Positions 25,812 to 32,259 of a DNA stretch of 33,292 bases are shown piece after piece. Within the stretch, counting starts at the first letter, position 1, and each line of letters begins with the position of its first letter. The stretch lies in the NCBI GenBank assembly GCA_902768325.1, contig CACXKY010000021.1:1-33292 (forward strand). Reading direction: 5' to 3'. Source of the DNA: Fibrobacter succinogenes. GTDB lineage: Bacteria; Fibrobacterota; Fibrobacteria; Fibrobacterales; Fibrobacteraceae. The translations under genes were made by a program, and so were the position numbers. The notes beneath the pieces are model-generated. The model saw nothing but the letters and a program-made list of their open reading frames with translations, was not told the DNA's origin and searched no databases.

Positions 25812-27383
25812 CTAGAAGTTAATGAACATCCCGATGGAGGTCGCCATCTCTTCGGTGGTGGAGAACGATCCGAACGGGTTGCTCAGGAATTGCTTGGTAA
25901 ACGCCAGTTCGAGTGCGGTGAGTTCGTACTCAAGGCGGAACCCGATATTGGCCGTCGTGAATCCCGACGAGATGTCCACCGTCTTGGTGGAAACGTCCCT
26001 GATGTAGGAATCCCTGTACCGCACCAAATCCCACTGGTGGCTTGCGCTACCGAAGGCGACGACGTACTTGCCGAGCATCACTTCGCCCAAGATGTTGGGC
26101 GTGGTTACGAGGGCGTATTCGTTATGCCTGCTGCAAACGTCTACGATGCGGTCGTAGGTGGCGAGCGGAGCCATCGTGTTCAAGCCGATGAATACGCGGC
26201 CCTTTTCGTGACGGAGGATGGCCCAGCCGATATTGAATTCGGGGACGACTTCGACACGTGCGGTAGAGTCGGTCATGTGAGTTGTCGATGTCGCGAGGAA
26301 GCGCTTGCCTTCGCGTTCGATGATGCTCTTTTCCGTAGTCGTGTACTTGGAATTATAGCGCTGGACGCCGACGGCCGCGGTCCAAGAAACCTTCTTCCCG
26401 GCCTTCGATACGGAGAACGCTCCTCCGAGATTCCAGTTTTCAGATTCCTTCTCGACTTCTCCGCTGTGGATGGAACCGTCACTTTCAGGATGGTGGTAGA
26501 CGCCCCTGATGGCGAAGTCGAGACCGGCCAGCTTGGCGGACACGGTACCGCCCAAAGCGGTTCCGGCAGAAGTTCCCTTGACGGTTTCTTCAGAACCGGT
26601 CTTGTCGTCGTCGACGTAGCGCCACTGCTTTCCGACGGCACCTTGAAGGAGAATACCGAACGATTCCCTGGCGAGACCGGCGGAAACGAGAGCGAGGTCA
26701 TCGCTGTTGTTGAAGGCGAAGAAGAACGTGGTTCCCTTGCCGAACGATACGACGCCCTCTTCGTCAACGGGTTCAAAATAAGCAAAGTTGCGATTCGCCA
26801 TGTGGTGCGGGATGGCCATTTCTCCGGCGACGGTGGCGGCCGCCGCCTCGTTCCCTACGAGGTTATAGGCGTTGCCGTGCAGGATCTTGTCAAGCGGGCT
26901 TTCGATTTCGGGTACCGTTTCGACAGGCTTGGCGGTATCGGCGGGGGCCACAGCCACGGTCGCCGGGACGAATGCGGCGGAGTCGACCTTGGGCTGTTCA
27001 GCGACGGGCTGGACCGTATCGCGGGCCGTGGTGTCGGGTACAGCGGCGACGGTATCGCGCTTGGTTGTGTCGGCCGGGGCGGCTGCGGCGTTGGCGGTCG
27101 TATCGACAGCGGCGCTATCGGTGGCGACGGCCTGTGAATCGACCGGGGCAGAATTGGCCGGGACCGAATCGGTAACGGCAACTTCTGCAGGGGCTGCGGT
27201 AACGGCAGTGTCCGGAGCCTGTTGGACCATTTGAGTGGTATCGGCCGGCTGAGCTAACGGATCCGCTGCGGCAGGCGTTGCTTCAGGCGATGCGACTTGG
27301 AAATCAGGGGAGGCCGGCTGTTGCGCCCAGGCGGCAATCGAGATGCCGAAGGCGAGGGAAAGAACTTTGCTTGAGATTTTCAT
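25812..27383 (-). CDS. Predicted outer-membrane beta-barrel protein with Pro/Ala/Asp/Thr-rich linker
   Basis: The 523-residue protein has a signal peptide (MKISSKVLSLAFGISIAAWA, cut before QQ). A low-complexity stretch at about 22-162 repeats P-A-D-T-T or P-D-T-T-like motifs between Ala and Val runs. From about residue 190 on there are alternating hydrophobic/polar strands with glycines (GTALGGTVSAKLAGLDFAIR, ANIGFRLEYELTALELAFTK), and the protein ends in phenylalanine (GMFINF), as outer-membrane barrels do. No specific family is recognised. An open frame extends upstream to 27551, but only the start at 27383 gives a signal peptide. A TAGATT hexamer lies 7 bases upstream. Confidence 0.8.
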   Translation of the reverse strand: MKISSKVLSLAFGISIAAWAQQPASPDFQVASPEATPAAADPLAQPADTTQMVQQAPDTAVTAAPAEVAVTDSVPANSAPVDSQAVATDSAAVDTTANAAAAPADTTKRDTVAAVPDTTARDTVQPVAEQPKVDSAAFVPATVAVAPADTAKPVETVPEIESPLDKILHGNAYNLVGNEAAAATVAGEMAIPHHMANRNFAYFEPVDEEGVVSFGKGTTFFFAFNNSDDLALVSAGLARESFGILLQGAVGKQWRYVDDDKTGSEETVKGTSAGTALGGTVSAKLAGLDFAIRGVYHHPESDGSIHSGEVEKESENWNLGGAFSVSKAGKKVSWTAAVGVQRYNSKYTTTEKSIIEREGKRFLATSTTHMTDSTARVEVVPEFNIGWAILRHEKGRVFIGLNTMAPLATYDRIVDVCSRHNEYALVTTPNILGEVMLGKYVVAFGSASHQWDLVRYRDSYIRDVSTKTVDISSGFTTANIGFRLEYELTALELAFTKQFLSNPFGSFSTTEEMATSIGMFINF

Positions 27384-27390
27384 AAAAATA

Positions 27391-27396
27391 AATCTA
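27391..27396 (-). promoter_or_regulatory. -10-like element for the minus-strand outer-membrane protein gene
   Basis: On the minus strand TAGATT ends 7 bases before the ATG at 27383 and is preceded by an alternating TATATATA stretch. No Shine-Dalgarno sequence is present. It lies in the 64-base divergent region shared with the gene at 27448. It follows the same spacing rule as the elements at 12868, 27956 and 31325. Confidence 0.5.
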
Positions 27397-27447
27397 TATA
27401 TATTTTTGTATAAAGGAACTAGGGGCCGTAATAAAAACGACTTATTT

Positions 27448-27951
27448 ATGAATAAAACGAAAAATTCTCGAGAATTCGTTACACACGAGTTTCCGGCGGT
27501 TTTCGACCGCGGTTCGTGCGTGCTGTTGCTCGGGTCGATTCCCTCGCCCAAATCCCGCGAGGAAGGCTTTTATTATGGGCATCCGCAGAACCGCTTTTGG
27601 AAGGTGCTTGCCACCGTCTTCGGCGAAAGCGTACCTGCGACAATCCCGCAAAAAAAGGCGATGCTCAAAAAGCACCATGTGGCGCTCTGGGACGTGCTGG
27701 AAAGCTGCACCATCGTTGGCGCGAGCGACACGAGCATCGAGGACGCCGTGCCGAACAGGATTGGCGACCTCGTGAAAAAATCGAAGGTTTCCCGGATTTT
27801 CTGTACCGGGGCAACGGCCTACAGGCTTTATCAGAAATACTGCGCTGCGGAAGTCGGCATGGATGCCGTAAAACTCCCGTCCACATCGCCCGCGAATTGT
27901 GCCGTTTCGATGGAAAGACTTGTGGAGGCGTACAGGGTGATTCTGGGATAG
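27448..27951 (+). CDS. Uracil-DNA glycosylase superfamily protein, probable DNA-deoxyinosine glycosylase
   Basis: The 167-residue protein resembles the hypoxanthine-DNA glycosylase group of the UDG superfamily. Motif 1 is LLLGSIPSPKSREEGFYYGH, followed by PQNRFWKVLATVFGE. ALWDVLESCTIVGASDTSIE is the middle region, FCTGATAYRLYQKY is the central strand, and PSTSPAN is the C-terminal motif that replaces the usual HPS loop. It would remove deaminated bases from DNA. The frame is open from 27343, but residues before MNKTKNSREF run through the divergent promoter region, so 27448 is chosen. The likely ribosome binding site is not obvious. Confidence 0.82.
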   Translation: MNKTKNSREFVTHEFPAVFDRGSCVLLLGSIPSPKSREEGFYYGHPQNRFWKVLATVFGESVPATIPQKKAMLKKHHVALWDVLESCTIVGASDTSIEDAVPNRIGDLVKKSKVSRIFCTGATAYRLYQKYCAAEVGMDAVKLPSTSPANCAVSMERLVEAYRVILG

Positions 27952-27968: not shown

Positions 27969-29762
27969 ATGAAAAAACAGACCCTTTCTGTCATTGCATT
28001 TTTAGCGCTGTTGCTCGCAGCTTGCAGTGACGATTCGAGCGATCCGATTCAGAATTATTGGGATTCGTTAGATGCAGACAACGCGGAATACGAGGCCCGT
28101 TGCCTAGACAAGTTTGGATTGTCCGCAGAAGACGAATGGCTGACTTCCATTCCAGAGGGAAGCTCCCTGGACAGCGTCGTTTGTGACGAATTGTCCATGC
28201 ATATGCGCACGATGCTTTCATTTTACGCAATTTGCGTGGAGTCCAAGTACAGTGCGTCGGCAAACCGTTTTAATGTAAGAACCTTGGCTGAACGAGGGTA
28301 CAATTCTCTTTGGGCGGACGTCACGGGTTGTAAGTACAAATTTTCGAGCGAGGATAATTACGCCAGTTTGGTTACTAGGGACAGGGAATGGTCCTTTGAC
28401 GAATGCCTTTGCAAGCAGGAATCCGGGGTAGCCTATTACCGTGTGCCCAAGGAAGCCTCCAGTTCTTCTTTGAGTAGCTCCTCTGCGAAGAGTTCTTCCG
28501 GGAAATCTTCCAGTTCCATCTCGTCTAGTTCCGCGAAGTCTTCTTCGAGCAGCGCTCCTGCAAGGTCTTCTTCTAGCCTGGTGTACAATACGAAATTGGA
28601 AGCCGTGGATATTGGCGGGTTGCTCTGGGCTACAAAGAATTTGGATGTGGAAGTGAATGGCAGCATGTGCTACAAGGGTTCTGCAGACAACTGCAAAAAG
28701 TACGGCAGGATATACACGTGGGCCATGGCGATGGGTTTAGACACGGCCTATGATCGCAAACATTTCGGTTCTATAAAGCAGCCTTATCGCGGAATATGCC
28801 CTGAAGGCTGGTATCTCCCGAGCCATGAAGAATGGACTTATTTGAGCAAATATGTAGAGCAATATCCTGAATACAAGGCCTACTTTACGAACCAGATTGG
28901 CGGAGCCTATGATTATCAGGGCTTTTACCGGTCGGAAGATGTCGAGACCTTGTTCTGGAGTTCTTCGGAATATAAGGATTATGATTCTTTCGCCTGGCTT
29001 TGGGCATACCGGAAAGACCTCTCTATCGCGACGGACAACGCCCATAAATATACGGGCGCCTATGTTCGCTGTCTCAAGGAAGGGTCCAAGGCAACCTGGA
29101 GTTCCAGCGTAGCGAAATCGTCTTCCAGTTCCGTCTCGTCTAGTTCCGCGAAGTCTTCTTCAAGCAGTGTTCCGGCATCCTCTTCGTCCGAGATTTCCTC
29201 CTCGTCTGAGGAATCGTCTTCGTCCAATTCGGTATACCGCCCCGATGTAGATGAAGTGCTGATCGGTACACAGGTCTGGTCGACAAGGAACTTGAATGTT
29301 CCTGTGGAAGGCAGCATGTGCTACGCCGATAAACCGGAAAATTGCGAAAAGTATGGTAGGATATACACGTGGGCCATGGCGATGGGCGTGGATGTCAAAT
29401 ACGACAGGGAGGAACTCGGCCCGATTGAATTGCCCTACCGTGGAGTGTGCCCTGAAGGCTGGCACCTTCCGAGTTATGAAGAATGGCAGTCGATGAACAG
29501 CTATGTTACCGAAAATCCCGATTACAAGGCGTATTTTACGAACCAGATCGGTGGTGCCTACGATTATAACGGACACTATCGTTCGGAAGGAGAGGAGACT
29601 TTGTTCTGGACATCGACGGAATACGATGTGTCTGGATCGGGTTTCCCTTATGAATATGCATGGCTTTGGGCCAACCGAAAGAACCTTTCTGTCGCGACGG
29701 ACAATGCCCATAAGTATACCGGGGCGTATGTCCGTTGCATAAAGAATACGGTGCAGGAATAA
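27969..29762 (+). CDS. Lipoprotein with two Fibrobacter succinogenes major paralogous (FISUMP) domains
   Basis: The 597-residue protein starts with a lipoprotein signal (MKKQTLSVIAFLALLLAACS, lipobox cysteine C19). An N-terminal module of about 140 residues (20-160) contains at least six further cysteines and is not recognised. A polyserine linker (about 162-204) leads to FISUMP domain 1 (about 211-372). A second Ser/Glu-rich linker (about 377-422) leads to domain 2 (about 424-594). Each FISUMP copy has W-x-T/K-x-N-L-[DN]-V, SMCY, C-x-KYGRIYTWAMAMG, CPEGW-x-LPS-EEW, YFTNQIGGAYDY and DNAHKYTGAYVRC. Family knowledge: these domains are abundant in secreted Fibrobacter proteins, but their function is unknown. 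An open frame reaches back to 27516 but lies over the preceding gene. Confidence 0.93.
   Translation: MKKQTLSVIAFLALLLAACSDDSSDPIQNYWDSLDADNAEYEARCLDKFGLSAEDEWLTSIPEGSSLDSVVCDELSMHMRTMLSFYAICVESKYSASANRFNVRTLAERGYNSLWADVTGCKYKFSSEDNYASLVTRDREWSFDECLCKQESGVAYYRVPKEASSSSLSSSSAKSSSGKSSSSISSSSAKSSSSSAPARSSSSLVYNTKLEAVDIGGLLWATKNLDVEVNGSMCYKGSADNCKKYGRIYTWAMAMGLDTAYDRKHFGSIKQPYRGICPEGWYLPSHEEWTYLSKYVEQYPEYKAYFTNQIGGAYDYQGFYRSEDVETLFWSSSEYKDYDSFAWLWAYRKDLSIATDNAHKYTGAYVRCLKEGSKATWSSSVAKSSSSSVSSSSAKSSSSSVPASSSSEISSSSEESSSSNSVYRPDVDEVLIGTQVWSTRNLNVPVEGSMCYADKPENCEKYGRIYTWAMAMGVDVKYDREELGPIELPYRGVCPEGWHLPSYEEWQSMNSYVTENPDYKAYFTNQIGGAYDYNGHYRSEGEETLFWTSTEYDVSGSGFPYEYAWLWANRKNLSVATDNAHKYTGAYVRCIKNTVQE
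28506..28552 (+). repeat. Serine-linker DNA repeat, copy 1
   Basis: This 47-base segment in the first polyserine linker matches 29121-29167 with two mismatches. The domain parts also share near-identical DNA, such as 28707-28735 with 29358-29386. The copies show that the FISUMP unit was duplicated together with its linker and is open to recombination. Confidence 0.85.
29121..29167 (+). repeat. Serine-linker DNA repeat, copy 2
   Basis: This is the direct-repeat partner of 28506-28552, 615 bases downstream, with two mismatches over 47 bases. It lies in the second polyserine linker of the same gene. Synonymous similarity beyond what the protein requires suggests recent duplication or ongoing gene conversion. 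Confidence 0.85.
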
Positions 29763-29776
29763 ACAAGAGGTTTTAT

Positions 29777-31318
29777 ATGAGTGTTACGATGCAAGAAGTG
29801 ATGAAACAGTCCGGCGTGGCTTTTGGAACGAGCGGTGCTCGCGGCCTGGTGACGGCGATGACGGACCGCGTTTGCTACGTATATGCGCGTTGCTTTATCA
29901 AGTACTGCGAAGCCAGCTACAAGTGCGAACACACGATTGCGATTGCGGGCGACTTGCGCCCGAGTACCGAACGTATTCTGAAGGCGCTCGTGAAGGCGGG
30001 CGAGGACAGCGCATGGAAGGTCGTGTACTGTGGCCGCATCCCGAGCCCGGCGATTGCGCTGTACGGCATCGACAAGGCGCTCCCGACCATCATGGTGACG
30101 GGTAGCCATATCCCGGCCGACCGCAACGGCATCAAGTTCAACCACCCGCAGGGTGAAATTTCCAAGAAGGATGAACAGGGAATCGTCTCGCAGGCGGTGG
30201 ATTTTGACGAAAGCATTTTTGACGCGGCTGGCATGCTGAAATCTGCTCCCGCGCTCCCGGCAGTGGAAAAGGAAGCCGAAGAAAATTATTGCAAGCGCTA
30301 TCCGGAATTCTTCGGTACTAAAGCTTTGCAGGGCCTCACTATCGGCGTGTACCAGCATTCCGCCGTGGGCCGCGATATCGTGGTGAAGGTTTTGGAAAGC
30401 TTGGGTGCGACGGTGAAGCCGTTTGCCCGCAGTGAAACGTTTATCCCGGTCGATACCGAGGCAATCCGCAAGGAAGACGAAGACTTGGCCCGCGACTTTG
30501 CGCACAAGGATTTCGTCGACGCGATTTTCAGTACGGACGGCGATAGCGACCGCCCGCTCTTGGCAGACGATGTAGGCATGTGGCTGCGTGGCGACGTGCT
30601 GGGCATCTTGGCTGCCCAGGCGCTTGGCGTCAAGCGCATTGCAACTCCGGTGAGTTGCAACACGTCGCTCGAGAAGTCCAAATCCTTCGAGAAGATTTGC
30701 CGCACCCGCATCGGCAGCCCCTACGTGATTGCCGGCATGGAAAGCCTTGTCGACGAAGCCGACCCGAGCATCTCTGTCGCGGGCTACGAAGCAAACGGCG
30801 GATTCCTGCTGCAGACGAACCTCACGCGCGCCTTCGAAGACGGTACGCGCACGCTCCCGGCACTGCCGACCCGTGACGCCCTCCTCCCGATGATTGCGGT
30901 GATGGTGAGCGTCCGCGAACAGCGCATGTGCGTCGTCGACTTGCTCAAGAAACTCCCGAAGCGCTTTACGCTCAGCGACCGCCTCAAGGAATTCCCGACA
31001 GAAACTTCGAAGGCCAAACTTGCCGAAATCCGTGAACAGAAATTGGGCGAAAAGCTCTTTGGCGCGCTCACCGCGAAGCCGAGCCGTTTTGCCAAGCCCG
31101 ATGATTCGGGCAAGATGCCGGCCCCCTTCCAGGGAAAGATTGTCGCCATCGACGAGACGGACGGCTACCGTATGGAATTCGATTCCGGCGATATCGTACA
31201 CCTGCGCCCGAGCGGTAACGCTCCGGAATTCCGCTGCTATGTGGAAACCGAAGACAAGGTGCGTTCCGCCGAACTTTTGGCCGACTGCATGAAAATCATG
31301 GAAGGCTGGCGGAAGTAA
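29777..31318 (+). CDS. Alpha-D-phosphohexomutase (phosphomannomutase/phosphoglucomutase family)
   Basis: The 513-residue cytoplasmic enzyme interconverts hexose 1- and 6-phosphates through a phosphoserine. All four family loops are visible. The catalytic loop is TGSHIPADRNG with S110, and GTSGARG lies near residues 17-23. The metal-binding loop is DGDSDRP (254-260), the sugar-specificity loop is GYEANGGF, and the phosphate-binding loop is RPSGNAPEFR (477-486). The TGSHIP form is closer to ManB-type phosphomannomutases than to GlmM, but the substrate cannot be settled here. ATG 29777 follows AAGAGG at 29765-29770; an upstream in-frame start at 29735 lies within the lipoprotein gene and is rejected. 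It may feed sugar nucleotides to surface polysaccharides such as the locus at 12881-19261. Confidence 0.92.
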   Translation: MSVTMQEVMKQSGVAFGTSGARGLVTAMTDRVCYVYARCFIKYCEASYKCEHTIAIAGDLRPSTERILKALVKAGEDSAWKVVYCGRIPSPAIALYGIDKALPTIMVTGSHIPADRNGIKFNHPQGEISKKDEQGIVSQAVDFDESIFDAAGMLKSAPALPAVEKEAEENYCKRYPEFFGTKALQGLTIGVYQHSAVGRDIVVKVLESLGATVKPFARSETFIPVDTEAIRKEDEDLARDFAHKDFVDAIFSTDGDSDRPLLADDVGMWLRGDVLGILAAQALGVKRIATPVSCNTSLEKSKSFEKICRTRIGSPYVIAGMESLVDEADPSISVAGYEANGGFLLQTNLTRAFEDGTRTLPALPTRDALLPMIAVMVSVREQRMCVVDLLKKLPKRFTLSDRLKEFPTETSKAKLAEIREQKLGEKLFGALTAKPSRFAKPDDSGKMPAPFQGKIVAIDETDGYRMEFDSGDIVHLRPSGNAPEFRCYVETEDKVRSAELLADCMKIMEGWRK

Positions 31319-31338: not shown

Positions 31339-32259
31339 ATGATCAAGAGACTTCTCGCTTTCGCCCTCGCTGCAGGATCCCTCGCTTTTGCCGGGGAGTA
31401 CTGGAACGTGGATCCGGGTGGAACCACCATGAAGTTCCTGTCGATGCATGTGTCGCCGCGTACGGCTGCCATGTCTGGAGCCGGTGTCGCCGATGTTGCC
31501 CGTGCATCTGAAGTGTCCCGCAATCCGCTCGCCATGAGCACTGCGGAAATTCCGGAATTCGGTATCAACCAGATTATCATGGACGGGGCGGCCCTGGACA
31601 AGTTCACGTCGGCCTATTTCGCCTTTCCGGTGGCCAAGAGTTTTGCGGCCGCCGCGACGGTGGATTTTCTCGGATACGATGAAATCGAAGGCCGTGACGA
31701 AGAAGGCATGAAGACGGCTGATTACGGCGCCTACGCCTGGAGCGTTCAGGCCGGTTTCGGTAGCCGTGACCGCGTGTTCAACTGGGCGGGCAGTTTCCGC
31801 TTTGCTTCGCAAACGATTGACGATGCGACGGCGTTCGCCTTCTTGGGGAACGTGGGCGGATCGTTCCGCGTGAACCGCTACTTTGCCTTTGCGGCCACCT
31901 TGACGAACGCGGGTTACGTGACGGAATACGAGGACGAAGACGAATATGCTCCGATGGCTTTGCAGGCTGGCGTGACGGGCGTCGTGCCCTTTAGCGAAAA
32001 GTGGGCGTTGCACCTTTCTGCCGATGCCTACCGCCGTGCCGATACCGACCCGCAGTGGCTCTTTGGCGGCGAGCTTTCGTATGCCGAAGCGTTGATGTTC
32101 CGCGCCGGCTATGCGGTGCGTACGCAGAACGGGACCGAGAACGGTATCAGTTGCGGTCTCGGCGTGCTCATTGGCTTGATCGTCTTTGACTACGCCTACG
32201 AACCGCGTCCGGCTTTCGAGGGCGGCAACCATTACCTGGCTCTCGGACTTAGATTCTAA
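31339..32259 (+). CDS. PorV/PorQ-like outer-membrane protein
   Basis: The 306-residue protein has a signal peptide (MIKRLLAFALAAGSLAFA, cut before GEYW). The early motif FLSMHVSPRTAAMSGAGVAD then VARASEVSRNPLAM resembles the R-A-x-A-M-G-x-A and x-N-P-A-x-L start of the PorV/PorQ (FadL-like) family. The rest is a run of amphipathic beta-strands with aromatic girdles, ending HYLALGLRF with a C-terminal phenylalanine. It would be an outer-membrane barrel; in Bacteroidetes PorV helps type IX secretion, but that role is not shown here. A strong hairpin with a U-tract follows it. Confidence 0.75.
   Translation: MIKRLLAFALAAGSLAFAGEYWNVDPGGTTMKFLSMHVSPRTAAMSGAGVADVARASEVSRNPLAMSTAEIPEFGINQIIMDGAALDKFTSAYFAFPVAKSFAAAATVDFLGYDEIEGRDEEGMKTADYGAYAWSVQAGFGSRDRVFNWAGSFRFASQTIDDATAFAFLGNVGGSFRVNRYFAFAATLTNAGYVTEYEDEDEYAPMALQAGVTGVVPFSEKWALHLSADAYRRADTDPQWLFGGELSYAEALMFRAGYAVRTQNGTENGISCGLGVLIGLIVFDYAYEPRPAFEGGNHYLALGLRF

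Follow-up and report, generated by a model that had tools for sequence, protein, structure and literature searches.

A predicted surface lipoprotein of Fibrobacter succinogenes combining two FISUMP domains with a six-cysteine module

Gene, product and neighbourhood

The window analysed here is the whole 33,292-nucleotide stretch of Fibrobacter succinogenes contig CACXKY010000021.1 (assembly GCA_902768325.1), and all positions are those of this stretch. The coding sequence at 27969–29762 on the plus strand runs from an ATG at 27969 to a TAA stop at 29760–29762, exactly the limits proposed in an initial annotation that was made from the sequence alone. It encodes a precursor of 597 amino acids with a mass of 66.9 kDa and a pI of 4.96, and all of the features described below lie on the same strand. 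The precursor begins with a type II signal peptide (27969–28025), whose lipobox, LLAA-C, was recognized by sequence and pattern and ends at the lipid-bearing Cys19, in agreement with the earlier description of a lipoprotein. The lipid-bearing cysteine is followed by SDDSSD (28026–28043), which resembles the lipoprotein export signal of Bacteroidota when compared with the published consensus (PMC5080379). A six-cysteine module occupies residues 41–160 (28089–28448), with C45, C72, C89, C121, C146, and C148 and the invariant residues W57 and Y157. It leads into a first serine-rich linker (residues 159–205, 28443–28583; 60% Ser) and FISUMP domain 1 (residues 205–372, 28581–29084; Cys 234, 242, 277, and 368), and a second serine-rich linker (residues 378–419, 29100–29225; 69% Ser) connects this to FISUMP domain 2 (residues 422–597, 29232–29759; Cys 451, 459, 494, and 590). 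The polyserine linkers noted initially were thus present. Apart from the lipid-bearing cysteine, the number of cysteines is even in each folded segment (6, 4, and 4). Overall, the initial interpretation stood for the FISUMP domains, the lipidation, the linkers, and the unrecognised module, and its reading of the motifs had to be corrected.

The Pfam scan of the neighbours identified a gene of the uracil-DNA-glycosylase superfamily 17 bases upstream (27343–27951, plus strand) and a phosphoglucomutase/phosphomannomutase gene 14 bases downstream (29777–31318, plus strand). The uracil-DNA-glycosylase-superfamily gene stood beside the lipoprotein in only 1 of the 18 relative loci examined, and the lipoprotein was located directly upstream of the phosphohexomutase gene in 8 of the 18 (L039, L056, L057, L058, L060, L061, L062, and L064); L039, from F. 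succinogenes isolate RUG14062, is the nearest named relative. The gene is not adjoined by carbohydrate-degrading genes in the same scan, its neighbour being the phosphohexomutase. No transporter family was detected among the scanned neighbours, two of which, at 31339–32259 (plus strand) and 25812–27551 (minus strand), gave no Pfam match at 0.001. In L060 and L064, too, the counterpart of the gene at 31339–32259 lies close to the phosphohexomutase gene.

FISUMP domains and the repertoire of the genome

The two FISUMP domains claimed initially were recovered with both family profiles above the curated cut-offs: PF09603 matched in two copies (3.3e-31; 109.4 bits against a cut-off of 33.9) and TIGR02145 gave 9e-55 (186.1 bits against 41.65). 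FISUMP domains have been described as extracytoplasmic by sequence and as about 175–200 residues long (PMC4704652); the present protein carries a lipobox, and its domains comprise 168 and 176 residues as cut. The genome (2.91 Mb in 231 contigs, about 85% complete) contains 110 PF09603 matches, so the gene at 27969–29762 belongs to a large repertoire. These matches fall in 86 extracted open frames, 57 of which have a lipobox by pattern. According to the counts given in PMC4704652, the Fibrobacteres carry 17 to 119 copies of the family per genome, and C. alkaliphilus has none.

The product is therefore a member of a large known family, in which its module and its subfamily signature are new. It shares with the family two domains above the cut-offs, the four family cysteines, and the CPxGW and VRC motifs, and it is a lipoprotein with serine linkers, like many FISUMP proteins of this genome. 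In contrast to the family at large, it belongs to an NxHK-type subfamily and carries a six-cysteine module that has no Pfam or PDB sequence match. Of strain S85, Table 1 of PMC4619616 lists the FISUMP protein Fisuc_2249 among the envelope proteins found only on cellulose; this listing applies at the level of the FISUMP family. According to PMC6851124, of 49 lipoproteins that were quantified, 40 decreased on cellulose.

Motifs and constraint in the FISUMP heads

CPEGW, LPSxEEW, and DNAHKYTGAYVRC occur in both FISUMP domains. We counted these motifs across the 110 FISUMP matches of the genome. The CPxG-type and VRC-type motifs were found in 99 and 97 matches, respectively, LPSxEEW in 3, and DNAHKYTGAYVRC in 2, both in the present protein; N[AGP]HK was likewise found in 2 of the 110 domains, again both in this protein. 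The CPxG-type and VRC-type motifs are hence general, and LPSxEEW, DNAHKYTGAYVRC, and NAHK are special to a subfamily. A search with domain 2 as the query separated this subfamily sharply, at E values of about 1e-57 or better followed by a gap to about 1e-30, and most of the subfamily members read carry the NxHK signature.

Identity between the two domains is 67%. In the last block of their alignment (columns 151–180), the residues are 92% identical and the third codon positions 38% identical, which indicates constraint at the protein level and a DNAHKYTGAYVRC stretch held by selection. Given the same low identity at third positions, a recent tandem duplication was rejected as the cause of the identical motifs. 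A different pattern was observed between domains 1 and 2 of the relative L010/L039, where two middle blocks are 96–100% identical at third positions and the first and last blocks 53–66%; the middle blocks have the appearance of a gene-conversion tract between tandem heads.

In an alignment of 42 FISUMP domains (A6; 41 from the source genome, including those of the present protein, and one from a viral contig), the cysteines of CPxGW and VRC (C73 and C169) were invariant, and C30 and C38 were near-invariant. In C-type-lectin-like domains, a long-range disulfide links the start of a helix to the last strand, and the CPxGW/VRC pair would fit such a bond. Because these cysteines are found family-wide, they point to a structural disulfide rather than to one binding site. 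The initial annotation had taken the nearly unchanged motifs as a conserved binding or folding site. The constraint is borne out by the difference between residues and third positions, and the single binding site is not: the cysteines look structural, and NxHK is specific to the subfamily.

Fold of the FISUMP domain and its link to Lcl_C

An AlphaFold model of the FISUMP domain had a pLDDT of 57 and a pTM of 0.60. With this weak model as the query, 25 of the 31 Foldseek rows were C-type-lectin-like by title, none at E ≤ 0.001, and Foldseek searches against PDB and BFVD gave nothing at that threshold. All 46 rows shown by VIA were likewise C-type-lectin-like by title, a list from which the absence of other folds carries no meaning; none was significant, and the best match had a Z of 3.6 and an rmsd of 3.8 over 88 aligned residues. 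Profile searches of PDB sequences with the subfamily alignment (A2) and the 42-member alignment (A6) returned no match.

PF07603 (Lcl_C/DUF1566) matched residues 217–369 weakly (3.7e-7), and its 30.9 bits lie under the curated cut-off of 34.9, so the protein was not assigned to Lcl_C. DUF1566 and Fib_succ_major are reported to be similar by HHsearch, and both to be targets of diversity-generating retroelements (DGRs) (PMC4159848). For Legionella Lcl, a crystal structure has shown the C-terminal domain, which contains PF07603, to be C-type-lectin-like; this head forms trimers, has no disulfides, and binds glycosaminoglycans (PMC11162425). The present protein and Lcl share a C-terminal head on a stalk, a likely C-type-lectin-like fold, and the weak profile match, whereas the disulfide-free trimeric head of Lcl sits on a collagen-like stalk and each head here has four cysteines and follows a serine linker. 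As no fold match reached significance, it is from the uniform match lists together with the Lcl_C link that we judge the FISUMP fold to be probably C-type-lectin-like. The earlier statement that FISUMP domains have no known function accordingly holds in part: the related Lcl_C domain is the glycan-binding head of an adhesin (PMC11162425), and FISUMP domains are known as DGR targets (PMC4159848).

The six-cysteine module

The N-terminal module had been described as roughly 140 residues long with at least six cysteines; the six cysteines were confirmed, and its extent proved to be about 120 residues (41–160). Its own genome has one copy of it. A profile built from 33 members (A1) located 47 places in 35 of 167 genomes of the phylum; these places fall within a single family and within 3 of 40 genera. 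Across the 33 members, C45, W57, C121, C146, C148, and Y157 are invariant, and 32 members retain C72 and C89; the one exception, L053, has lost both together, which suggests a C72–C89 pair. The spacing of the six cysteines (about 26, 16, 31, 24, and 1) fits 41 of the 44 module proteins read, the others being L053 and two proteins extracted with a late start (L019 and L021).

The description of the module as unrecognised was upheld. Pfam returned no family for the module of the present protein and matches at chance level only among the 33 members, and the A1 profile had no match to PDB sequences at E ≤ 10. We also looked in Pfam for a known enzyme family, which would have spoken against the initial annotation, and found none. 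The best chance match, Glyco_transf_11, appeared in 1 of the 33 members at 0.0014, and in the full-length protein L014 it scored 13.9 bits against a cut-off of 23.9; an enzymatic assignment was rejected. An AlphaFold model of the module made with two sequences (the present protein and L039) had a pLDDT of 39, and no fold is claimed for it. We infer that this is a previously undescribed module of disulfide type with a putative role as a base or docking piece.

Exchange of heads behind the module

A total of 46 module proteins were extracted, and 44 entered the head counts after L054 and L055 had been left out by eye; the counts do not take in the module places G077:C2 and G069:C5. A serine run follows the module in all 44. 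The heads behind it are FISUMP domains, one or two, in 28 proteins, Laminin-G/ConA-like domains in 11 (three confirmed by Pfam PF13385 and the others by BLAST to these), and diverged in 5, three of which show merely a short FISUMP-like patch. Three Laminin-G/ConA-like lipoproteins (L038, L052, and L053) have the same module (with four cysteines in L053), lipobox, and serine run as the present protein, but their head is of the PF13385 type, not FISUMP. Conversely, at three of the eight module-less loci read (L216, L217, and L223), the phosphohexomutase-adjacent position, the lipobox, the serine linker, and both heads are kept and the module is absent. These module-less orthologues and the variety of heads indicate that the module is optional and exchangeable.

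Five module proteins (L014, L019, L021, L025, and L032) have a common long C-terminal region, for which no Pfam or NCBIfam model reached its cut-off in L014, L025, and L032; it is possibly a strongly diverged FISUMP domain. L055 (G097:C15) contains a diverged module copy (profile E value 2.3e-9), apparently located C-terminally in a longer lipoprotein that has no FISUMP head.

A putative surface-export signal

The SDDSSD that follows the lipid-bearing cysteine places polar and acidic residues at +2 to +6, directly after the lipobox. The published consensus of the export signal is SDDDD in B. fragilis and SDDFE in F. johnsoniae (PMC5080379); like B. fragilis SDDDD, the present tether has a polar residue at +2 and acids at +3/+4, here as a sequence signature. 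In the literature searched, we found no report of a lipoprotein export signal in Fibrobacter. An acid at +3/+4 was present in 53 of the 57 FISUMP lipoproteins of the genome. A tag was obtained for 42 of the 44 module proteins, and 38 of these have the acid; two of the four proteins lacking it are those extracted with a late start (L019 and L021). In the control lipoproteins, an acid at +3/+4 was present in 3 of 26 BamD and 0 of 30 Pal sequences. The BamD set comprised 30 loci, four of which had no automatic lipobox call, and those four sequences show no acid at +3/+4. A basic residue occurred at +2 to +4 in 28 of 30 Pal. The Fisher p value for FISUMP against BamD plus Pal was 1.5e-23, which overstates the independence of the data because the controls are two gene families. 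MlaD, taken as a further control, was uninformative, with 3 lipobox-like matches in 30 loci (L240–L269). Most FISUMP lipoproteins have [S/G]-[D/E]-[D] directly after the lipid-bearing cysteine, and most Pal are basic at +3.

Among 18 other candidate lipoproteins of the fetched loci, 8 likewise have at least two acids within +2 to +6, and the signature may therefore not be confined to surface export. The surface display proposed initially has nevertheless gained a putative basis in SDDSSD. If the signal is a true one, it would place most of the FISUMP repertoire on the cell surface.

Proposed function

The domain architecture, the family formed by the module, the exchange of heads and of the module among relatives, the constraint on the motifs, and the acidic tether signature were all observed. 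From them, we consider it fairly likely that the product is a modular outer-membrane, probably cell-surface lipoprotein that functions as an adhesin of lectin-like type or in the capture of glycans, and whose ligand and surface location we infer. The precursor would be lipidated at Cys19, as its lipobox predicts, and the acidic SDDSSD tether may then direct it along a surface-export route like that of Bacteroidota to the outer leaflet. At the membrane, the compact, disulfide-stabilised module could serve as a base or docking piece, from which the flexible serine-rich linkers would hold out two heads of C-type-lectin-like fold. Each head would be closed by the pairing of the CPEGW and VRC cysteines and by a short Cys–Cys loop; for head 2, the predicted pairs are Cys494–Cys590 and Cys451–Cys459. 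With two heads, the protein could bind its ligand with avidity, this being a polysaccharide or a glycoprotein and plausibly one related to plant fibre. The adhesion role suggested initially is retained as the likeliest one. The cellulose-only listing of Fisuc_2249 speaks for this reading; against it stand the low confidence of the AlphaFold models, the fold searches that gave no significant match, the PF07603 score under its cut-off, the phosphohexomutase in place of a carbohydrate-degrading gene as neighbour, and the decrease of most quantified lipoproteins on cellulose (PMC6851124).

The strongest alternative, although an unlikely one, is a protein–protein scaffold, in which the FISUMP heads would dock partners at the surface (enzymes, fibro-slime proteins, or OmpA/TPR complexes) in a cohesin-like manner instead of binding glycans. 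The suggestion that TIGR02145 may be an analogue of cohesin has been put forward before (Warnecke et al. 2007, cited in PMC4704652). Several rows of our fold lists are also protein-binding C-type-lectin-like domains. However, the module bears Laminin-G/ConA-like heads in 11 of its 44 relatives, a fold often used for glycans. It is improbable that the N-terminal module is instead the working part, as an enzyme or a specific binder, and the heads are accessory: its conservation across 35 genomes with invariant cysteines, W57, and Y157 would suit such a role, but the conserved positions are mainly cysteines and aromatics with no obvious catalytic set, the best enzyme-family match (Glyco_transf_11) is at chance level, and the orthologues that lack the module keep the heads. 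About equally improbable is a lipoprotein that captures a nutrient or cofactor and hands it to an outer-membrane transporter, by analogy with the BtuG/BtuH-type proteins of Bacteroides; the acidic tether does resemble those of Bacteroidota surface lipoproteins, but the scanned neighbours include no transporter family (two have no Pfam match), and the neighbour kept in relatives is a phosphohexomutase. Active diversification of the heads by a DGR is very improbable despite the known targeting of FISUMP domains (PMC4159848; PMC8934634), as no reverse transcriptase (RVT_1) was matched in the about 85% complete genome, a DNA search with both domains found no template-like copy (patches of ≤68 bases at 76–91%), and third codon positions vary where motif residues are fixed.

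Returning to the lectin-like adhesin, a wider reading may be offered tentatively. The Fibrobacterota might use a Bacteroidota-type export signal, [S/G]-[D/E]-D, to display more than 50 C-type-lectin-like FISUMP lipoproteins, with the six-cysteine base module and the heads (FISUMP or Laminin-G) swapped like cassettes and gene conversion acting between tandem heads; such a set could hold and probe plant fibre independently of cellulosomes. It has long been asked how Fibrobacter manages to hold plant fibre in the absence of cellulosomes, and the FISUMP proteins form a very large unexplained repertoire. Three handles on this are offered by the module family with its exchangeable lectin-type heads, by the natural orthologues that either have or lack the module at a single locus, and by the putative export signal.

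FISUMP sequences in viral contigs

A search of viral contigs with a single domain as the query found no relative, and the subfamily FISUMP profile (A2) located two loci; phage records gave two weak matches, at 25.9% identity. One viral contig (IMGVR_UViG_3300028327_000033, L073:1782–2519) carries a gene for a FISUMP lipoprotein of its own (PF09603, 4e-23), which has a short serine-rich linker. By eye, this gene sits between a methylase-like gene and an opposite-strand gene, maybe for a tail protein.
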